A stretch of 64,000 nt of DNA. It comes from Psychrobacter lutiphocae DSM 21542 (GTDB lineage Bacteria; Pseudomonadota; Gammaproteobacteria; Pseudomonadales; Moraxellaceae). The stretch covers positions 1 to 64,000 of the forward strand of contig NZ_KB907632.1 of assembly GCF_000382145.1 (NCBI RefSeq). Reading direction: 5' to 3'. Shown here in pieces: positions 46,061 through 59,323 of this stretch; position 1 is the first letter of the stretch; each line of letters starts with the position of its first letter. The notes beneath the pieces are model-generated. The model saw only the letters and a program-made list of their open reading frames with translations, searched no databases and was not told the DNA's origin. Position numbers and translations under genes: made by a program.

Positions 46061-47635
46061 TCAACCATTATTATCTCTGATCTTATCTTCCGCTTCACTG
46101 CGATCCAACATGGCTCTTACCGGTTTAGCAACTGCCAATAAAAGCACAGCGGTCACCACTAAGAAGATAACCATGGTCTTAAACAAGTCTGGCAACCCAT
46201 CAATGGTGTCAGCAGAGACATGCCCACCAAAGAAGGCAGCCACTAAGTTACCCATCGCATAAGAGGTGAAAAACAACCCCATCATTTGTCCCTGCATGCC
46301 TTTTGGTGCCAACTTAGTCATCGACGATAAGCCCACTGGACTCAATGCCAATTCCCCTAGGGTTAATAATAATAAACTACTGGTTAACCATAAGGGCGAT
46401 ACCAAAGTGCCTGGGCTGGCGACCACTGCTTTGGCGGCAAAAATCATCACTCCAAAACCAGCAGCGGCCAGTAACATACCGATGGCAAACTTAGTCATAC
46501 TATTGGGCTCAAGTCCACGGCTGCCCAGCTTCACCCAAAGAATACTGACAATAGGTGCCAATAGCAAAATAAAAATCGGGTTTAATGACTGAAACCAGAT
46601 ACTTGGAATACTAAAGCCCATCACATCCAGATTGGTATAGCGATCTGCAAATAAGTTAAAAGAGGTCGGTTGCTGCTCAAAGCTAGACCAGAATAAGGTT
46701 GAGCCAATAATCAGTAAGAAACAAATCAGCAGGCGCAGTTTATCGCTCTTATCTAACTTAGGCGCAATAAACATATAGGCAAAATATAAAACCACCATAC
46801 CAGCAATGACATAGGTCATATATTCCGCAACCATAGAGGGATTAAATGGCATGATGCCTGTCGCAATCAAGACGATCAGTGCCACCAAAGCAGCCATAAA
46901 TATGCCCACCCAACGCCCAATATTTTGATACTGGCTATTGGGTAGCTCCCACGAAGCTGTGATGCCTTTTGCTCGTGCATAACGCTTTAAGTTTTTGCGT
47001 GCAGCAAAGCGGTATACCAACAGTGAAATTAACATCCCGATACCACCGACGCCAAAGCCAACATGCCACATCTGGCGCTCTTGGAACATACCAACAATCA
47101 ATGCCGCAACCAATGCACCAATATTGATACCCATATAAAACAAGGTAAATCCAGCATCACGGCGAGTGTCACCCTCTTGATACAGCGCCCCAACCATGAC
47201 CGAAATACAGGTCTTAAATAAACCTGAACCCAGCACAATGCAGGTCAAACCAATAAAGAATAGTGACATACCCATAAAAGCAGACAAGGCAATGCACAAA
47301 TGACCTAAGCCAATGATAATACTGCCCCACCATAATGCCCGCTCTTGCCCAAGCCAGTTGTCTGCCAGCCAGCCACCTGGTACCGCAGCCAGATATAATG
47401 TGCCTGCAAAGATACCGTAGATCGCAGACGCTGTGGCATCATCAAAACCAAAGCCACCACTACTGACAGATGCCACCATGAATAACACTAATAGGGGACG
47501 AATACTATAATATGAAAATCGCTCCCACATCTCGGTAAAAAACAAAGATCGCAGTGGCTGTGGGTGTCCCATAAATCCATTATCAAGCGCTTCAAACTCA
47601 GCTGAAGGCTTGGGTGATTGTGATTCTATACTCAT
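46061..47635 (-). CDS. POT-family proton-dependent oligopeptide transporter
   Basis: A 524-residue member of the PTR2/POT family (about 14 membrane helices) that imports di- and tripeptides with protons. The ExxERFxYY motif is present (TEMWERFSYYSIRPLL, about residues 34-49), as are GGWLADNWLGQERALWWG and FTLFYMGINIGALVA, the two PTR2 signatures. I use the ATG at 47635 with AAGGA at 9 nt; ATG codons at 47644 and 47671 are in frame but poorly placed. The window also carries an oligopeptide ABC system (60181 onward). Confidence 0.93.
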   Translation of the reverse strand: MSIESQSPKPSAEFEALDNGFMGHPQPLRSLFFTEMWERFSYYSIRPLLVLFMVASVSSGGFGFDDATASAIYGIFAGTLYLAAVPGGWLADNWLGQERALWWGSIIIGLGHLCIALSAFMGMSLFFIGLTCIVLGSGLFKTCISVMVGALYQEGDTRRDAGFTLFYMGINIGALVAALIVGMFQERQMWHVGFGVGGIGMLISLLVYRFAARKNLKRYARAKGITASWELPNSQYQNIGRWVGIFMAALVALIVLIATGIMPFNPSMVAEYMTYVIAGMVVLYFAYMFIAPKLDKSDKLRLLICFLLIIGSTLFWSSFEQQPTSFNLFADRYTNLDVMGFSIPSIWFQSLNPIFILLLAPIVSILWVKLGSRGLEPNSMTKFAIGMLLAAAGFGVMIFAAKAVVASPGTLVSPLWLTSSLLLLTLGELALSPVGLSSMTKLAPKGMQGQMMGLFFTSYAMGNLVAAFFGGHVSADTIDGLPDLFKTMVIFLVVTAVLLLAVAKPVRAMLDRSEAEDKIRDNNG

Positions 47636-47751
47636 AATTTTCATTCCTTGCCTGTCGGTGTTTGCAAACATGCTAAAAAATAAGATGATATATTCATGTT
47701 CAAACGGTTAAATTCATATAGGATAAAAAAAGCCATATAGACTAAAAACAG

Positions 47752-47790
47752 AAAAAGCCCGCTTAATCCATTGATTAAACGGGCTTTTTT
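47752..47790. terminator. Strong bidirectional terminator
   Basis: AAAAAGCCCGCTTAATC, loop CATT, GATTAAACGGGCTTTTTT forms a stem of 13 bp with one mismatch. Ends the minus-strand transcript of the acidic membrane protein gene. Confidence 0.92.
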
Positions 47791-47952
47791 AATAGTTCTA
47801 CTCTGGGTTATCTGACTTGATAGTATGACAAAATAGACTGGTCAGAAGCTGATAATAAACCTGTATTAACAACTGACTAACGCGACTACGTGGCTGGTTG
47901 CAAGCAGCAACAGCCAGCTTGCGTATTAGACAACTAATAACCAAACCTAAAA

Positions 47953-48372
47953 CTACTGAGCTATTTCTTCTTCAGTAGCTTCATCTGCCACCTCTACTTC
48001 AACAGTATCATCTGCGGCATCAGCAGTAACTTCCGTAGTGGCTTCGACCGCTGCTGCAGTGGCTTGAGCGCTACTAGAGTCTGCATTGTCTGCAACGACT
48101 TCGGCAATATCCATATCATTTGCAGCACCTGCTTCTGCTACCATTTCTTCTGCCGCAGCTTCTTCTGTGGTAGGCGCTTCAGATGCTTCTGCTGTTGCCT
48201 CTTCTGCGACTTCTGTTACCTCTTCTACGGCAGATTCAGGCTCAACATGACTGCCTGCTGGGCGTAAGAAAGCAGAAATAGCAATCAGAAGAACGAGGGC
48301 CAAAAAAACAACTGTGCCAATCAGTGCGTAGGTAAATTCTTTCTTCGGTTTATTTTGGCTTGCATCTGCCAT
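47953..48372 (-). CDS. Single-span membrane protein with acidic Ala/Glu tail
   Basis: A 139-residue protein of unknown function. A short Lys-rich N-terminus (MADASQNKPKK) precedes one membrane helix (about residues 14-34, YALIGTVVFLALVLLIAI). The remaining about 100 residues are almost only Ala, Glu, Asp, Val and Thr. Charge distribution predicts the acidic tail outside, in the periplasm. Composition recalls the Ala-rich lipoprotein at 1138, but I see no real alignment. The spacer upstream (48373-48666) has nothing clear except a weak hairpin. Confidence 0.7.
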   Translation of the reverse strand: MADASQNKPKKEFTYALIGTVVFLALVLLIAISAFLRPAGSHVEPESAVEEVTEVAEEATAEASEAPTTEEAAAEEMVAEAGAANDMDIAEVVADNADSSSAQATAAAVEATTEVTADAADDTVEVEVADEATEEEIAQ

Positions 48373-48609
48373 AGGTCACCTATCCGTATAGTTTAGTGGT
48401 GTCAAAATTAGCTCAAAATGGCATCGCAATCTTCATATTAATGCGTGATTAGCAGATCGCTGTCTTAGCCAACTTTGACAATCAATAAAAGTTAAAAGAG
48501 TGTGGCTCTGTACGGGTTACTCGCCCAAGAACCTGTTACATTTTTTGCTATTATATCGCAATTTGCTACATTTTGTGAAAACGCCATATCCTATTTGTGG
48601 ATTAACAGT

Positions 48610-48642
48610 ACATTTTTAATAAAACAGTTGCTTACCTGTTTA
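48610..48642 (-). terminator. Possible terminator after lnt
   Basis: On the minus strand AAACAG, 8-nt loop, CTGTTT is followed by TATTAAAAATG. The stem is short, so efficiency is doubtful. Confidence 0.4.
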
Positions 48643-48666
48643 AGTTTAACCTGTTAATTCAATAGT

Positions 48667-50244
48667 CTACCTATGCTTTGCACCCCGTTTTGCCAATACA
48701 CTTAATAACAATAATAAACCAATAAATATTAAAATCGGATAATTACCAAAGCGCACATAAGGGGTCATCCCTGTGCGTGACTGCACTTCACCGCGCAATA
48801 CCGTACGCTCAAACTGTGGCGCACGCTGCACAATACGACCTTTATGGTCAATAATGGCGGTCACGCCTGTATTGGTGGCACGCAAAAACCAACGACCGGT
48901 TTCTAAAGAGCGCATTTGCACCATTTGTAGATGTTGCAGCGGGCCAGCGGACGTCCCAAACCATGCATCATTAGAAATGGTTAATAAAAAGTCAGTGCCT
49001 TTTGCATTACGGCGGGTGGTATCTGGATAGGCGACCTCATAACATACAGCTGCGCCTAGATTGTGACCCTTGACTTGAAGTGGTGACTGATTGGCATCAC
49101 CACGACTATAACTTAAAATATCTGGGCTCCCTGCCAGCTTAGGAAACAAGTCGAGCGCCCCTTCTAGTGGAATATACTCTCCAAAAGGTACCAAGCGCTG
49201 CTTTTTATAGATGCCATTTGCTTCTGCACCCAATGCCAATACGCTGTTATAAAAGGGGGTGTATTTGTCAGTTTCTGGGTCATAAGCAGTATCGTCTTTG
49301 TACGGTACGCCAGTCAGCCACACAGTATTGGTCAGCTTGGCAATCCGATCTACCTCAGCAATAAAATCCCACGCCTCGGTCTGAAACATCGGAATAGAAG
49401 ACTCAGGCCAAACAATAATATCTTGATCCCACTGGTTGCTGGTTAAGTTGGCGTAGATTTCTAACGTTTTATACTGATACTCAGTTAGCCATTTTAAGTC
49501 TTGTGGGATATTGCCTTGAATCAGCGAAACCGTTAAATTTTTGCTGTTTGCTTTTGGCTGAGTCCAAGCAGGGTTTATAAGCCATAGACCAATACTCACC
49601 GCCAACAATAAGGCAGACACCAGCAAATAGCCGGCCTGCTTGCGAAATGCCTCTACCAAACTTGCTGCTAATAATACCGCCACAAAAGATATCGCAAATA
49701 CGCCAGCCACTGGTGCTAACGATGACAGCCAGTATTGCTCAGTAAATGCATAACCAACGAATAGCCAAGGAAAACCAGTAAATAGCCAAGTTTTTAGCCA
49801 CTCTTGCAGCACCCAAAGCGCAGCAAATGCCAACGGCTGCTTACCCACAAAGCGGTTAAATATCAATGCTAAAAAAGCATGGAACAGCCCCATGCCAAGC
49901 CCCATCACCGCAATCGCCAATAAAGATAAAGGCACAGACACATAGCCGTACTCATGAATGGAGGTATATAGCCAAAATGCTCCGACACACCACAGCCCCA
50001 TACCGTAGGCTTCACCAATGATAAAAGCCCGCTTATTGGACATGGGTGCTAGCAATAGCGCATATAATAAGGCCGGTGATAACAAGGCAATAATCCAATA
50101 GCCATAAGGTGCCAGCGACAACATAAACATCGCACCAGATAGCCAAGCCACTATTACCGCTAGACCAATAGGCAGACGTGAAACCTGCTCAGATGCTGTT
50201 GGCGTATTGAGTCGCTTTTGAAGATGTTGGGTGGTGGCTCGCAT
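48667..50244 (-). CDS. lnt: Apolipoprotein N-acyltransferase
   Basis: A 525-residue inner-membrane enzyme that adds the third acyl chain to lipoproteins. About six N-terminal helices (residues about 25-225) anchor a periplasmic nitrilase-like domain. The catalytic triad is visible: Glu in IIVWPESSIPMF, Lys in IYKKQRLVPFGEYIP, and Cys in GAAVCYEVAYPD. A last membrane helix (about 500-520) closes the protein. Length equals E. coli Lnt (512) plus a short N-terminal tail. Confidence 0.96.
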   Translation of the reverse strand: MRATTQHLQKRLNTPTASEQVSRLPIGLAVIVAWLSGAMFMLSLAPYGYWIIALLSPALLYALLLAPMSNKRAFIIGEAYGMGLWCVGAFWLYTSIHEYGYVSVPLSLLAIAVMGLGMGLFHAFLALIFNRFVGKQPLAFAALWVLQEWLKTWLFTGFPWLFVGYAFTEQYWLSSLAPVAGVFAISFVAVLLAASLVEAFRKQAGYLLVSALLLAVSIGLWLINPAWTQPKANSKNLTVSLIQGNIPQDLKWLTEYQYKTLEIYANLTSNQWDQDIIVWPESSIPMFQTEAWDFIAEVDRIAKLTNTVWLTGVPYKDDTAYDPETDKYTPFYNSVLALGAEANGIYKKQRLVPFGEYIPLEGALDLFPKLAGSPDILSYSRGDANQSPLQVKGHNLGAAVCYEVAYPDTTRRNAKGTDFLLTISNDAWFGTSAGPLQHLQMVQMRSLETGRWFLRATNTGVTAIIDHKGRIVQRAPQFERTVLRGEVQSRTGMTPYVRFGNYPILIFIGLLLLLSVLAKRGAKHR

Positions 50245-55418: not shown

Positions 55419-55435
55419 ATTAATAATATCTCTAG

Positions 55436-55509
55436 AGTCTGTTGAACAGTCATCTTCGTGGAAAAGGTTTGTCTTATTGTTATCACCATTTTCAAAATGA
55501 AGACACGCC
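55436..55509. mobile_element. MITE family D, copy 1 (74 bp, CTAG duplication)
   Basis: Flanked by CTAG at 55432-55435 and 55510-55513. Its reverse complement begins GGCGTGTCTTCATTTTGAAA and ends GTTCAACAGACT, matching the ends of the copy at 57136-57215. The middle is divergent. A four-base CTAG-type duplication points to IS5-related transposases (inference). Confidence 0.7.
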
Positions 55510-55546
55510 CTAGATTGCTATCTTAGATTAACATATGAAGTATTAA

Positions 55547-55647
55547 TACCAAATCTGAAAATTAAGATATCGAGGAAAACGAGTGCAAACGCTACAAGTA
55601 GTAGATTTAGCGAGTTTGACAAAGATAGGTTGTTTTTAGAAAAGGTA
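55547..55647. mobile_element. MITE family B, copy 5
   Basis: 101 bp, TACCAAATCTGAAAA to TTTTTAGAAAAGGTA (one base shorter than the others), with TAA at 55544-55546 and 55648-55650. Confidence 0.88.
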
Positions 55648-55687
55648 TAAGACGTGTGATGAGTGTTCAATATACCTTAATAATCAA

Positions 55688-55717
55688 GAAGAGGAGAGCC
55701 TATACCCTCCTCTTTTT
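55688..55717 (+). terminator. Rho-independent terminator
   Basis: The stem AAGAGGAG/CTCCTCTT with a 12-nt loop is followed by TTTTAG. It may end the transcript of the monooxygenase gene, about 410 bp upstream, now separated by three MITEs. Confidence 0.65.
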
Positions 55718-55861
55718 AGTCACTTTCTTTTTTGTATTAGTGTATCTTTTGTGCTATATCTAGTTATTTTACCTAGCATCTGTTGATGTAGGACAGCAGT
55801 GCAACCTGTTATTAGAATAGCGCAATTAGGATAACGCTAGCACACTTTGATAAAAACTAGA

Positions 55862-56104
55862 CTACTTCTTCTTTTTATCCTGTTTTTTTTGCTTAGAGTC
55901 TTTTTTCTTATCCTGTTTTTTGTTTTTCTTGCTATCTTGCTTTTTACCCTTCTTAGACTTCTTCTTATCTTTTTTAAGCTCGTTCTTTAACTCTTTAAGA
56001 TCTTGCTTCTTCTCAGCAATCTCTTTTTTTAGCTTCTTTTTCGCAATCTTGATGTCTTTTTCAAGTTCTTTTTTTAGCGCTTTTATTTCTGACTTCTTAG
56101 CCAT
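55862..56104 (-). CDS. Lysine-rich small protein
   Basis: An 80-residue protein made largely of Lys, Glu, Asp and Gln. The start at 56104 (MAKKSEIKALKKELEKD) has AAGGAG at 6 nt, a strong site that supports translation. Residues 5-45 fit a charged coiled coil with heptads (LKKELEKDIKIAKKKLKKEI). The last about 35 residues are a basic tail of KKQDK/KKDSK-type repeats. Such tails resemble H1-like nucleoid or RNA-binding proteins; function here is unknown. It lies immediately downstream (in its own direction) of a parS site. Confidence 0.7.
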   Translation of the reverse strand: MAKKSEIKALKKELEKDIKIAKKKLKKEIAEKKQDLKELKNELKKDKKKSKKGKKQDSKKNKKQDKKKDSKQKKQDKKKK

Positions 56105-56172
56105 TTTCAACTCCTTGGGTGGTTAGTTAATTTGCTTACTACTTCATTCACGACTTAGTTTAATTTTTACAG

Positions 56173-56188
56173 TGTTTCACGTGAAACA
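56173..56188. promoter_or_regulatory. parS centromere-like site (ParB binding)
   Basis: TGTTTCACGTGAAACA is a perfect 16-bp palindrome identical to the bacterial chromosomal parS consensus. It lies in the non-coding gap between the Lys-rich gene and the DUF2058 gene (56105-56333). There is no T-run or RNA-hairpin context, so a terminator is unlikely. I found no second copy in this window. Confidence 0.88.
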
Positions 56189-56333
56189 GGGGTAATAGCC
56201 ATTAAGTGATATTGGCATAAAACATTAGCTGTGATTAATACAAAATTTAATAAAAACAAAAAACTTACCTTGATAATAGCAAATCCACCTAGTAACTCAA
56301 GGGGTCACTGTATGCGCTGTGTAACATCTTGAG

Positions 56334-56867
56334 TTACCACATCAAGTCATCAGGGATCACGTACTGTGCATACGGATCATCTTCTGCTGGCTCATCTTCT
56401 GCTTTGTCATTAGATTCCACGATGAAGCCTTCCAGCTTTTCATTAATTCGATCTGCCAATGGGCGTGGTAGCAAGGCGTAGCCCTCTTCTAAGCGAGCGA
56501 TACTGACATGACCAGCGACAATTTGGTCAAACAGCTTTTGGGTAATATTTATCTTTTTAATCTTACTGTCATCGACAAAGCGATATTCAATCTCGCCTTG
56601 GGTGTCAGTAATCTGATGCTGTTGAATCATTTGTACGATGTTGGCTCTCAGCGTTTTTTCTTCTAGCGCCTGTTGTCGTTGCTGATTAAGCTGTTGGTCT
56701 CTTTTTAACTTCTCAGCTTGTGCTTCAGCCACTGCCTTCTTGATGTCAGCATCGGGTGCTTGACCAGTACGTTTGGCATGCTCTGCCTGCTTGGTGAGTT
56801 TTTTCGCTTTTTTGCTGTCTACCAATCCAGCTTTTAATAGCTGAGCTTGTAGTGCGTTTTTAGCCAT
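56334..56867 (-). CDS. DUF2058 protein (YaiL-like)
   Basis: A 177-residue protein. The ATG at 56867 (AAAGGAA at 7 nt) starts MAKNALQAQLLKAGLVDSKK, the family N-terminus; an in-frame start at 56942 would add 25 unconserved residues. A long charged helix (about 18-85) with KLTKQAEHAKRTG and KLKRDQQLNQQRQ leads to a compact domain with IEYRFVDDSKIKKI and ARLEEGYALLPRPLADRI. Function unknown; E. coli YaiL is described as nucleoprotein/polynucleotide-associated, which is only a hint. Confidence 0.85.
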   Translation of the reverse strand: MAKNALQAQLLKAGLVDSKKAKKLTKQAEHAKRTGQAPDADIKKAVAEAQAEKLKRDQQLNQQRQQALEEKTLRANIVQMIQQHQITDTQGEIEYRFVDDSKIKKINITQKLFDQIVAGHVSIARLEEGYALLPRPLADRINEKLEGFIVESNDKAEDEPAEDDPYAQYVIPDDLMW

Positions 56868-57135
56868 AACAAATTCCTTTGAGTCTGGGTTTATGTTGCT
56901 GATAGGATAATAAGTTTTATGACTTGTTGTCGGTAGTTGCAACCATAATTATTACCACTTACTGATATTAATCTACCAGATAACTAGATAGTGAGTATAT
57001 TAAAGATATGACTGTATTGTTGTTCATAAATTACGAACAATCGAAAACCATAAACACTATTATTGACAATATTCATTTTATTAGAATCAACAAATGAGGT
57101 ATGCTTAATAATAGAAAAAATCATCGTAAGACTAG

Positions 57136-57215
57136 GCCGTGTCCTCATTTTGAAAATTGATAATATAAATAAGATACATCGCTATTAAACACATGAGATA
57201 AATGTTCAACAGATC
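57136..57215. mobile_element. MITE family D, copy 2 (80 bp, CTAG duplication)
   Basis: Begins GCCGTGTCCTCATTTTGAAA, ends GTTCAACAGATC, with CTAG at 57132-57135 and 57216-57219. Opposite orientation to copy 1 at 55436. It lies upstream of the DUF2798 gene, in an otherwise empty AT-rich spacer. Confidence 0.72.
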
Positions 57216-57287
57216 CTAGGAAAATAACACAGATAATATCATGATATTAACCAAATAAAATAAAAGGAAAAGGATAAATACATTACT

Positions 57288-57557
57288 ATGACAACCAGAA
57301 CAGCCACTACAACTCATGTTCGGATTCATCGTAAATATCAGCGTTTAATCTTTACTGGATTGATGGCGCTGTTAATGTCGTTAATTATTTCAACTGCATT
57401 AATTTTATTAAAAGATGGTTATAGTGAGATATTCTTTAATGATCTTTTGCGCTCATGGCGCACATCATTCGTATTCGCTTGGCCTAGCGCTTATGTGTGC
57501 GCCTACTTGATTCAAACTCATATCCTTAGCCGTATTCACTTCCATGACGATAAATAG
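57288..57557 (+). CDS. DUF2798 membrane protein
   Basis: An 89-residue protein with two hydrophobic helices (about residues 20-43 and 58-77). The pattern FTGLMALLMSLIISTALILL, then WRTSFVFAWPSAYVCAYLI, is that of DUF2798 (small two-helix proteins with a WP motif). No function is known. AAGGAAAAGG precedes the ATG. A strong terminator follows at once. Confidence 0.78.
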   Translation: MTTRTATTTHVRIHRKYQRLIFTGLMALLMSLIISTALILLKDGYSEIFFNDLLRSWRTSFVFAWPSAYVCAYLIQTHILSRIHFHDDK

Positions 57558-57590
57558 AAAAATCACTGCCTAACAAGCAGTGATTTTTCT
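57558..57590 (+). terminator. Terminator of the DUF2798 gene
   Basis: The perfect stem AAAAATCACTGC/GCAGTGATTTTT with a 7-nt loop begins one base after the stop codon. Confidence 0.93.
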
Positions 57591-57630
57591 ATTATCACAG
57601 TCTAGAGCCTAAGATACACCCAACGACCAC

Positions 57631-57885
57631 TTAATTATCGACAGCATCTTACAGTTGGAATGGAAAAGTATAGTTGTAGTCAGATAAATGAGTTACAAGG
57701 CAACCGAGTGCAAGTACTACTGAAGTAGGCTAAACGAGGTTAACGCTGCAAATCTTTTATATGGCCGTGACTATAACCGCATCAAACGCCAATGCAAAAG
57801 GTAACAACACCAATTTACCCACAGTGCTTGTCCCACTATTAGTGGTAGGTGTAGTTTGAGTAATAAAAACCACATGCATCCATAT
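57631..57885 (-). pseudogene. Decayed paralogue of the 59324-60082 lipoprotein gene, split by a MITE
   Basis: On the minus strand, 57868-57776 reads TQTTPTTNSGTSTVGKLV and LLPFALAFDAV, aligning with TKTSQNGTSTAGKLV and LLPFALAFDVV of the intact gene. After a 103-bp MITE the frame continues FPFQL, stop, DAVDN, stop, against FPFQLLDAASQ. Removing the MITE and one TA joins the two parts with Thr exactly where the intact gene has it. Only the last about 35 codons survive. Confidence 0.8.
57671..57773. mobile_element. MITE family A, copy 2 (103 bp, TA duplication)
   Basis: Begins TAGTTGTAGTC, ends CCGTGACTA, with TA at 57669-57670 and 57774-57775. Same length as the copy at 244-346. It interrupts the paralogue fragment, which lets the insertion point be reconstructed base by base. 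Confidence 0.88.
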
Positions 57886-57989
57886 ATCTATTTTTTTGAA
57901 TAAAACACCAGCTCAGTGATATTATTGGCTCAATTAAATATGCGTTTATAATAAAAACTCTTTTAATTTATACCTTCTATTTATACCTT

Positions 57990-58931
57990 CTATTTTATAC
58001 TCTGACGAAAGTTTTTATAATCTTCAGCAGAGCTTTTTACCGCCTCGAGTACAGGCACATGCCCTACTTTTGGCATCATAATGACTTTTGCTTGTGGAAT
58101 AATCGTTTTGATATAAGCTGCCGTCTCAGGTTTAATAACACTATCCTCCTCTCCCCATGTTACTAGGGTCGGAATGTTATATTGAGCGATGATCTTTGCC
58201 TTTTCTTCCACACTATCCTCGATGATTTGTGCCAGAATCTTGGACTCTAACGCTCTGTTTTCTATTCTCTGCTGCGCTAATACCGCTTTTACTGTCGTCG
58301 GAATGTAAGGTGGATCATACATGACCAAGTCAGTTAGTCTATCAAAATCATCATAGCTACTAATTAATAGTGGATTATTATCAAGGGTTGCGCCTTCCAA
58401 TGATTTGGGTACACCAACTGACCAAAATCCTGCACTATCAATCAGCCAAACACTAGCCACCTCTTCTGGATACAAGGCCGCATAAGCTACCGCGATAGAG
58501 CCGCCCATAGAGTTACCACCAATATGTAGGTTGGTCGCCATGCCATTGGCAGTCACCAGCTCGTGCAATCTCTTGGCTTGAGCATCCGCTCGATAATCTT
58601 TGTCCATCGGCTTATCAGAGTCACCAAACCCCAGTAAATCTGGGATGATGACGTGATATTCACTAAACTCTTCGGCAATACGGGCAAAATTATGAATATT
58701 ACCGCCAAAACCATGCACTAATAATAAAGGCTTACCAGAAGTGTTATTGTTGTCGGCATAGACTAGGGTGTCCCCTGACGATAGCTCAAAAGATTTTAGC
58801 TCTAAGCCCGAACTATTTAGCTCATGCTGTAATAACTTTTCAGTTGTAGCAATCGTGAAGGAGTTGGGAGTAGTACAGCCCATTACTGTTATAGCCAATA
58901 GCGCCACTAGCCCTTTTTTTAATAATTGCAT
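57990..58931 (-). CDS. Alpha/beta-hydrolase lipase, lipoprotein (Lip1-like)
   Basis: A 313-residue lipase. The signal ends in the lipobox VMGC (about residue 19). The oxyanion segment is LLVHGFGGNIHNFAR, the nucleophile elbow GGNSMGGSIAVAY (Ser about 143), the acid in TWGEEDSVIKPETA and the His in MMPKVGHVPVLEA. I recognise it as very similar to the cold-active lipase Lip1 of Psychrobacter immobilis, family I/V lipases of psychrophiles (remembered, not searched). It hydrolyses acyl esters. The gene lies between a fragment and an intact copy of a lipoprotein gene family. Confidence 0.92.
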   Translation of the reverse strand: MQLLKKGLVALLAITVMGCTTPNSFTIATTEKLLQHELNSSGLELKSFELSSGDTLVYADNNNTSGKPLLLVHGFGGNIHNFARIAEEFSEYHVIIPDLLGFGDSDKPMDKDYRADAQAKRLHELVTANGMATNLHIGGNSMGGSIAVAYAALYPEEVASVWLIDSAGFWSVGVPKSLEGATLDNNPLLISSYDDFDRLTDLVMYDPPYIPTTVKAVLAQQRIENRALESKILAQIIEDSVEEKAKIIAQYNIPTLVTWGEEDSVIKPETAAYIKTIIPQAKVIMMPKVGHVPVLEAVKSSAEDYKNFRQSIK

Positions 58932-59323
58932 TATATCCCCTTGTCAAACAAAAAATACTTATAAATCCTCTAATGCTATGGACTTACGATTTGCAAACGA
59001 GAGTTAATAATAGCATTATTCAATAGTTTAGCTAAGGGCAATCTTTAAAATATTAATTTAAAGGGCAGGTTTAGACCCATTAAGAAGACCAATGTAACAG
59101 GATAAGTTATTTACTGTTGAACCGCTTCAAACATATAAGTTAATTTTAAGAGCTAGCTAAAATTTACCTTACTAAACAGAGTATTTACTAAAGTAAATTT
59201 AACTTAAACAATCATAACTTTTAAAATAGGAGACTAGAGTTTCTGCCTAAAATATTTAATGCTATTTTTATACTGTATAAGCCATTTTAAGTTGGATAAA
59301 TCTGTTGAGCTAAACCTAACTAA
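58932..59323. other. AT-rich spacer upstream of the lipase gene
   Basis: About 390 bases without a credible gene. It must hold the lipase promoter and the 3' end of the transcript of the 59324 gene. A palindromic stretch around AGAGCTAGCT (59150) has no T-run. Nothing else seen. Confidence 0.4.

Follow-up and report, generated by a model that had tools for sequence, protein, structure and literature searches.

According to one review (PMC7022226), the origin domain of bacterial chromosomes contains the par operon together with the majority of parS sites, an arrangement described there as usual rather than obligatory. Among the closest described systems is the chromosomal ParABS of Pseudomonas aeruginosa, in which the perfect parS is given as TGTTCCACGTGGAACA (PMC4368675) and for which a parS competence zone of ~650 kb is reported (PMC5098823). 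Transposon work in Caulobacter and Pseudomonas, as presented in two papers, indicates that a new parS is tolerated mainly near the origin (PMC5815017, PMC5098823). On the protein side, an Arg and a Gly are described as fixed in all ParB proteins, telling ParB from Noc (PMC7383237).

Here, we describe a 16-bp palindrome at positions 56173-56188 of a 64,000-base stretch of Psychrobacter DNA (hereafter, the window), which comprises bases 1-64000 of contig C11 in a 3.17-Mb draft genome of 78 contigs. With a probability of roughly 0.93, judged from sequence comparison, this palindrome is a chromosomal parS, at which the ParB clamp would be loaded and which is one of the outliers in a set of ~15 such sites around oriC. 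The site itself is ordinary, and the interest of the system comes mostly from the remote position of the parAB genes. The analysis provides a case in which sequence alone marks a window of a draft assembly as origin-proximal, and it outlines the chromosomal ParABS of a genus on which the literature found, at the level of titles, was mainly concerned with plasmids.

The palindrome and its immediate setting

The 16-mer TGTTTCACGTGAAACA at 56173-56188 is its own reverse complement, combining a CACGTG core with a 16-bp palindrome of the parS type, and a direct sequence check identified it as an exact copy of what we take to be the general chromosomal parS consensus. It is the sole match in the window with two or fewer mismatches, and 100 dinucleotide shuffles of the window yielded a mean of 0.01 such matches, with a match in 1 of the 100. 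With G+C set to 0.42, base composition predicts 0.00002 exact copies per 64 kb and 0.001 per 3.17-Mb genome, compared with the six observed, and 1.2 matches with up to two mismatches genome-wide. A chance match was accordingly dropped as a candidate on the strength of the shuffle mean in the window and the exact expectation per genome, and for the exact sites across the genome, chance is excluded by that expectation, as calculated from base composition.

The palindrome is intergenic, located 68 bp from the ATG (56104) of a Lys-rich open reading frame of 80 amino acids (55862-56104) and 145 bp from the stop codon of a DUF2058 gene encoding 177 amino acids (56334-56867), both on the minus strand. 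The DUF2058 assignment comes from Pfam (PF09831, E 2.7e-56), and the named relatives of this protein are mostly from Psychrobacter, the nearest being those of P. pasteurii, P. phenylpyruvicus and P. piechaudii at 93-94% identity. The Lys-rich ORF matched no family in Pfam or NCBIfam. Searches of the window against Rfam at the gathering threshold and for tRNAs produced no match, and the reading of the site as a structured RNA or tRNA was dropped. Membership in a terminator was dropped as well, the only terminator-like structure in 55600-57000 being located elsewhere, at 55689-55714. The site thus agrees with the earlier note, which had described an exact, palindromic, intergenic 16-mer that is outside any terminator and not expected by chance in 64 kb, and which had placed a Lys-rich protein and a DUF2058 protein in the same region. 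Of the "several MITEs" that the same note had seen nearby, one MITE-like element of 82-88 bp was identified, present in the window in two copies of opposite orientation, the first at 55432-55513, with the ends CTAGRRTCTGTTGAACA and GACACGSCCTAG, and the second, inverted, at 57132-57219. The nearest edges of the two copies are ~660 bp (left) and ~940 bp (right) from the palindrome, and the possibility that the parS is carried by the element was dropped.

The array around the replication origin

Across the draft genome, 15 sites with up to two mismatches were detected: six exact, four with one mismatch, and five with two. Fourteen of these are on contig C4 (12,337 to 119,516), where dnaA is located at position 112106; the remaining one is the palindrome of the window on C11, and the other 76 contigs contain none. 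Together, C4 and C11 account for 6.7% of the assembly, yet hold 15/15 sites, and a control search with the reversed pattern returned 0 matches in this genome. Against a genome-wide expectation of 1.2 matches with up to two mismatches, one or two of the five weakest sites could have arisen by chance. The earlier note had specified beforehand that a 16-mer scattered at random would speak against a parS; the confinement of all 15 sites to the dnaA contig and C11 is the opposite of such scatter.

Of 105 Psychrobacter genomes, 96 contain the exact 16-mer and nine do not. In a closed genome of a relative, G055 (3,160,997 bases), all 14 sites with up to two mismatches fall between 1,765,300 and 1,950,133 (185 kb), with dnaA at 1,833,363; the reversed-pattern control gave one match in G055 and up to two in other close relatives, among the matches listed. 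The GC skew switches sign at dnaA both in G055 and on C4, and a dif-like site, found with a pattern that we assume to represent dif, lies 0.47-0.50 of the contig away from dnaA in 5/5 genomes measured, so that dnaA can be taken to mark oriC. Several copies clustered around the replication origin, as is characteristic of parS, are accordingly found both on the contigs of the window's genome and in G055.

The two arrays were compared by projecting onto G055 16 positions of the window's genome, namely, the 15 sites and a three-mismatch site at C4:103556. Measured from the nearer flanking match, 13 of the 16 projections land no more than 120 bp from a G055 site. The projection of C4:103556 is off by 236 bp from the nearer flank and by 35 from the other, and those of C4:89669 and C4:89746 are ~3 kb off from the nearer flank and 187 and 110 off, respectively, from the other flank. 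The projected positions reach 13 of the 14 G055 sites, with neighbouring sites of the window's genome sharing a partner; the G055 site at 1,803,791 is the nearest to none.

The placement of C11 relative to the origin was derived from the synteny that C11 and C4 share with 220 kb of G055 and with 100 kb of another close relative, G038. The segment C11:43970-56867 corresponds to G055 1.7517-1.7662 Mb in direct orientation, and C11:59324-89215 corresponds to 1.8851-1.8520 Mb in reverse; C4:71064-122784 mostly corresponds to 1.7828-1.8456 Mb, in direct orientation, and the parts of C4 to the left of 71064 match both 1.767-1.783 Mb (direct) and 1.893-1.961 Mb (reversed). Because the direction of the G055 match flips across the interval 56,868-59,323 of C11, and because G038 retains the G055-like order on the DUF2058 side, with the counterpart of C4:48.6 kb adjoining DUF2058, an inversion around the origin is indicated for the window's genome, one breakpoint of which falls between DUF2058 and the next gene in common. 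This interval (56868-59323) also holds the inverted copy of the MITE-like repeat.

At its right end, C4 encodes the C-terminal portion of a DDE_3 transposase (Pfam match) on the reverse strand, and the right end of C11 contains what appears by eye to be the first part of a transposase, for which no Pfam family was matched. The two pieces are oriented as they would be if a single copy bridged the right ends of C4 and C11; they are perhaps one repeat at which the assembly broke. For this draft assembly, synteny and the contig-end transposase pieces suggest that C11 follows C4, and with the two contigs joined at their right ends, the palindrome would be 45-52 kb from dnaA. In the 220-kb stretch of G055 compared, the counterpart of C11:35510-89215 falls within ~84 kb of dnaA, which supports the proposal of the earlier note that the window, or at least its right part, is probably origin-proximal. 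At ~0.05 Mb from oriC, the site would be well inside a zone of the size reported for P. aeruginosa (~650 kb), in line with a parS.

Chromosomal position, neighbouring genes and alternative readings

In G055, the corresponding gap contains TGTTTCACGTGAAACC, which is identical to the palindrome of the window at 15 of 16 positions and is located 68 kb from dnaA. The distances to the Lys-rich ORF and to DUF2058 are 68 and 145 bp in the window vs 133 and 330 bp in G055, and the intergenic DNA aligns poorly (on one flank, 140 columns align with 98 identities, alongside 195 gap columns), so that the orthology of the two sites rests on their position and on the 16-mer. In six close relatives (G037, G038, G039, G044, G046 and G073), the best match within 1.5 kb 3' of DUF2058 had five to seven mismatches, and the site is accordingly dispensable in this clade. 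A Lys-rich ORF is present 3' of DUF2058 in five of eight close genomes, namely, the window's genome, G055, G037, G039 and G044, the last three of which lack the 16-mer there. A tree of DUF2058 groups the window's genome with G055 at a support of 0.76, a value that does not discriminate between a single gain and repeated losses.

In a broader survey of 30 DUF2058 loci, sampled from the 103 genomes with a DUF2058 match, a match with up to three mismatches was found within 1.5 kb of the gene in three, those of the window's own genome, G055 and G080. Among 80 named DUF2058 loci, inspected up to 10 kb on each side (both full 10-kb flanks were present in 55 of the 80), one locus, L174, contained parS-like sites. 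The site is thus not carried along with the DUF2058 gene, and the hypothesis that it belongs to the DUF2058 neighbourhood was rejected on these counts. The L174 locus, a contig of 15,105 bases from a Psychrobacter metagenome-assembled genome, has three parS-like sites near DUF2058, and the gene may be origin-proximal there.

The distance between DUF2058 and dnaA, determined on 24 contigs, is at most 68 kb in four (G030, G044, G046 and G055), 0.06-0.07 of the contig in G072 and G017, and 0.19-0.45 in the other 18. Three of the four, G030, G044 and G046, have no adjoining parS, and origin proximity of DUF2058 is therefore insufficient for the presence of the site. Among the contigs measured, the gap site is found solely where DUF2058 is near the origin, a pattern as expected if new parS sites are tolerated mainly in that region. 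Since DUF2058 persists in six close relatives that lack the site, we infer that the site goes with chromosome position and not with the neighbouring genes.

These observations bear on the possibility that the main role of the site is to regulate the Lys-rich gene (or DUF2058), with ParB bound upstream repressing or tuning the promoter, as at parS3 and parS4 of P. aeruginosa. Such a function would be compatible with the location of the site 68 bp upstream of the Lys-rich ATG and has a precedent in the repression through parS3 and parS4 described in a review (PMC7022226). However, G037, G039 and G044 retain a Lys-rich ORF although the site is missing there, the spacing is not conserved (133 bp in G055), and the promoter-like matches, 3 vs a shuffle mean of 3.7, do not exceed those in shuffled sequences, so we consider a primarily regulatory role unlikely. 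That the 16-mer is a chance or decayed sequence seems highly improbable: although the six close relatives lack the site and ~1.2 matches with up to two mismatches are expected per genome, exact matches have an expectation of 0.001 per genome, synteny places the site in the origin region, and the same gap of G055 contains a 15/16 counterpart. Even less credence is given to a palindrome that serves another regulator, such as a Noc-like protein, in place of ParB. The site is palindromic, and the best-scoring NCBIfam model for the ParB of this genome is TIGR04285 (Noc), but that score is below the cut-off (194.3 vs 315), whereas the sole ParB-family match, to TIGR00180, is over its cut-off; moreover, this ParB has Arg and Gly at the positions typical of parS binding, its gene comes after rsmG and a parA-type gene, and no contig other than the dnaA contig and C11 carries the sites.

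If the palindrome is a parS, as we favour, established ParABS biology predicts that ParB would load at TGTTTCACGTGAAACA and slide onto the flanking DNA, and that ParB at the site would assist ParA in segregating the origin region and aid the loading of SMC, in redundancy with the sites nearer dnaA. The DUF2058 segment would have come near the origin in this clade, and the site would have been acquired there, or retained, both in the window's species and in G055.

The partition genes and comparison with known systems

The earlier note had made its reading depend on the presence of parB in the genome, and a single ParB-family match (TIGR00180, over the cut-off of that model) was found, beside a ParA-type ATPase and RsmG. 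The genes occur in the order rsmG, ParA-type ATPase, parB on contig C16 (L105:6351-9722, about 46,351-49,722 of the contig), which contains neither dnaA nor parS. The ATPase, encoded next to parB as in ParABS systems, contains KGGVGKTT and matches Pfam AAA_31 and CbiA over the cut-off, with the NCBIfam ParA models scoring below theirs; an SMC gene that passes its cut-off is located on C1. The ParB protein carries GERRWRA (CTP motif), and its alignment to the Caulobacter chain, with residue numbers transferred onto the crystal chain by an inferred mapping with an offset of 10, puts Arg and Gly at the pair of residues distinguishing ParB from Noc, and Leu and His at the variable positions (179 and 184 in Caulobacter). 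Under this mapping, the genome appears to encode a ParB with both parS-type specificity residues and the CTP motif; the Gln/Arg pair by which the protein partner of a Noc-binding site is defined in one paper (PMC7383237) is not found at these positions of the alignment.

The par operon is outside the origin domain throughout the chromosomes measured: parB is located 0.34-0.47 of the contig from dnaA in 24/24 chromosome-scale Psychrobacter contigs, among the matches listed, and in the window's genome it sits on the separate contig C16. The earlier note had anticipated neither this remoteness of parAB nor the outlying place of the site in the array and its recovery from the same gap of a single relative. 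The 24 contigs, of 2.4 to 3.7 Mb, were picked by eye from 105 genomes, and some are unclosed. In G020, G027, G075 and G076, which are outside the 24, the raw separations between dnaA and parB are 1.24, 1.36, 1.30 and 1.38 Mb, respectively, and parB is 0.05-0.14 of the contig from the dif-like site in 5/5 genomes measured. The dnaA match of G006 (C1:2018848-2020276) is split in two, under the cut-off, with two stops in one piece, perhaps through sequencing error or as a broken copy.

Outside the genus, 20 chromosomes were examined over their first 20 kb, namely, one from g11 and 19 from g15, another genus of the family that is probably Acinetobacter; the six in which this stretch held no dnaA (five of g15 and that of g11) were dropped from the distance count. 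In all 14 measurable g15 chromosomes (14/19 with dnaA in the first 20 kb), parB is 0.37-0.47 from dnaA. Four of the 20 stretches, all among the 14 of g15, contained parS-like sites and 16 contained none, with one side of the origin covered, so that the parS half of the pattern is at most tentative for g15. Of 299 genomes of the family, five yielded no ParB match.

In the genomes measured, the separation of parAB from parS is shown by coordinates, and it looks old; that it is kept for a regulatory reason is speculation. Tentatively, and with more doubt than confidence, we propose that in Psychrobacter, and probably in much of Moraxellaceae, the centromere and its genes were anciently separated, with parS at oriC and rsmG-parA-parB stable in the terminus half. 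With this placement, replication would reach parAB late, and faster growth would lower its dose in relation to that of parS; the parS array would be free to gain sites, the palindrome of the window being an example, on segments brought near the origin by inversions. The titles and abstract openings of the literature found contain no mention of the place of parAB in Moraxellaceae, and we do not claim that it is unreported. Spanning many species, the separation offers a natural test of the importance of parAB-oriC linkage for segregation.

The Psychrobacter system resembles that of P. aeruginosa, where parS1-4 are the nearest to oriC among ten putative parS, in having several 16-bp palindromic parS, strong and degenerate, around oriC, along with genes for a ParA-type ATPase, ParB and SMC. 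It differs in the prevailing sequence, given that TGTTTCACGTGAAACA accounts for six of the 15 sites in the window's genome and the P. aeruginosa form TGTTCCACGTGGAACA for one (C4:66032), and in the location of parAB in the terminus half. With Spo0J/parS of B. subtilis and ParB/parS of Caulobacter, it shares the palindrome with the CACGTG core, the clustering at the origin, and the Arg and Gly at the specificity positions, whereas the G055 array extends over ~185 kb, compared with the 5 kb given for the five strongest Caulobacter sites (PMC5815017). Noc and its binding site likewise combine a ParB-family protein with a short palindrome, but the ParB of the window's genome has Arg/Gly instead of Gln/Arg, and the DNA to which it would bind is of the parS type.
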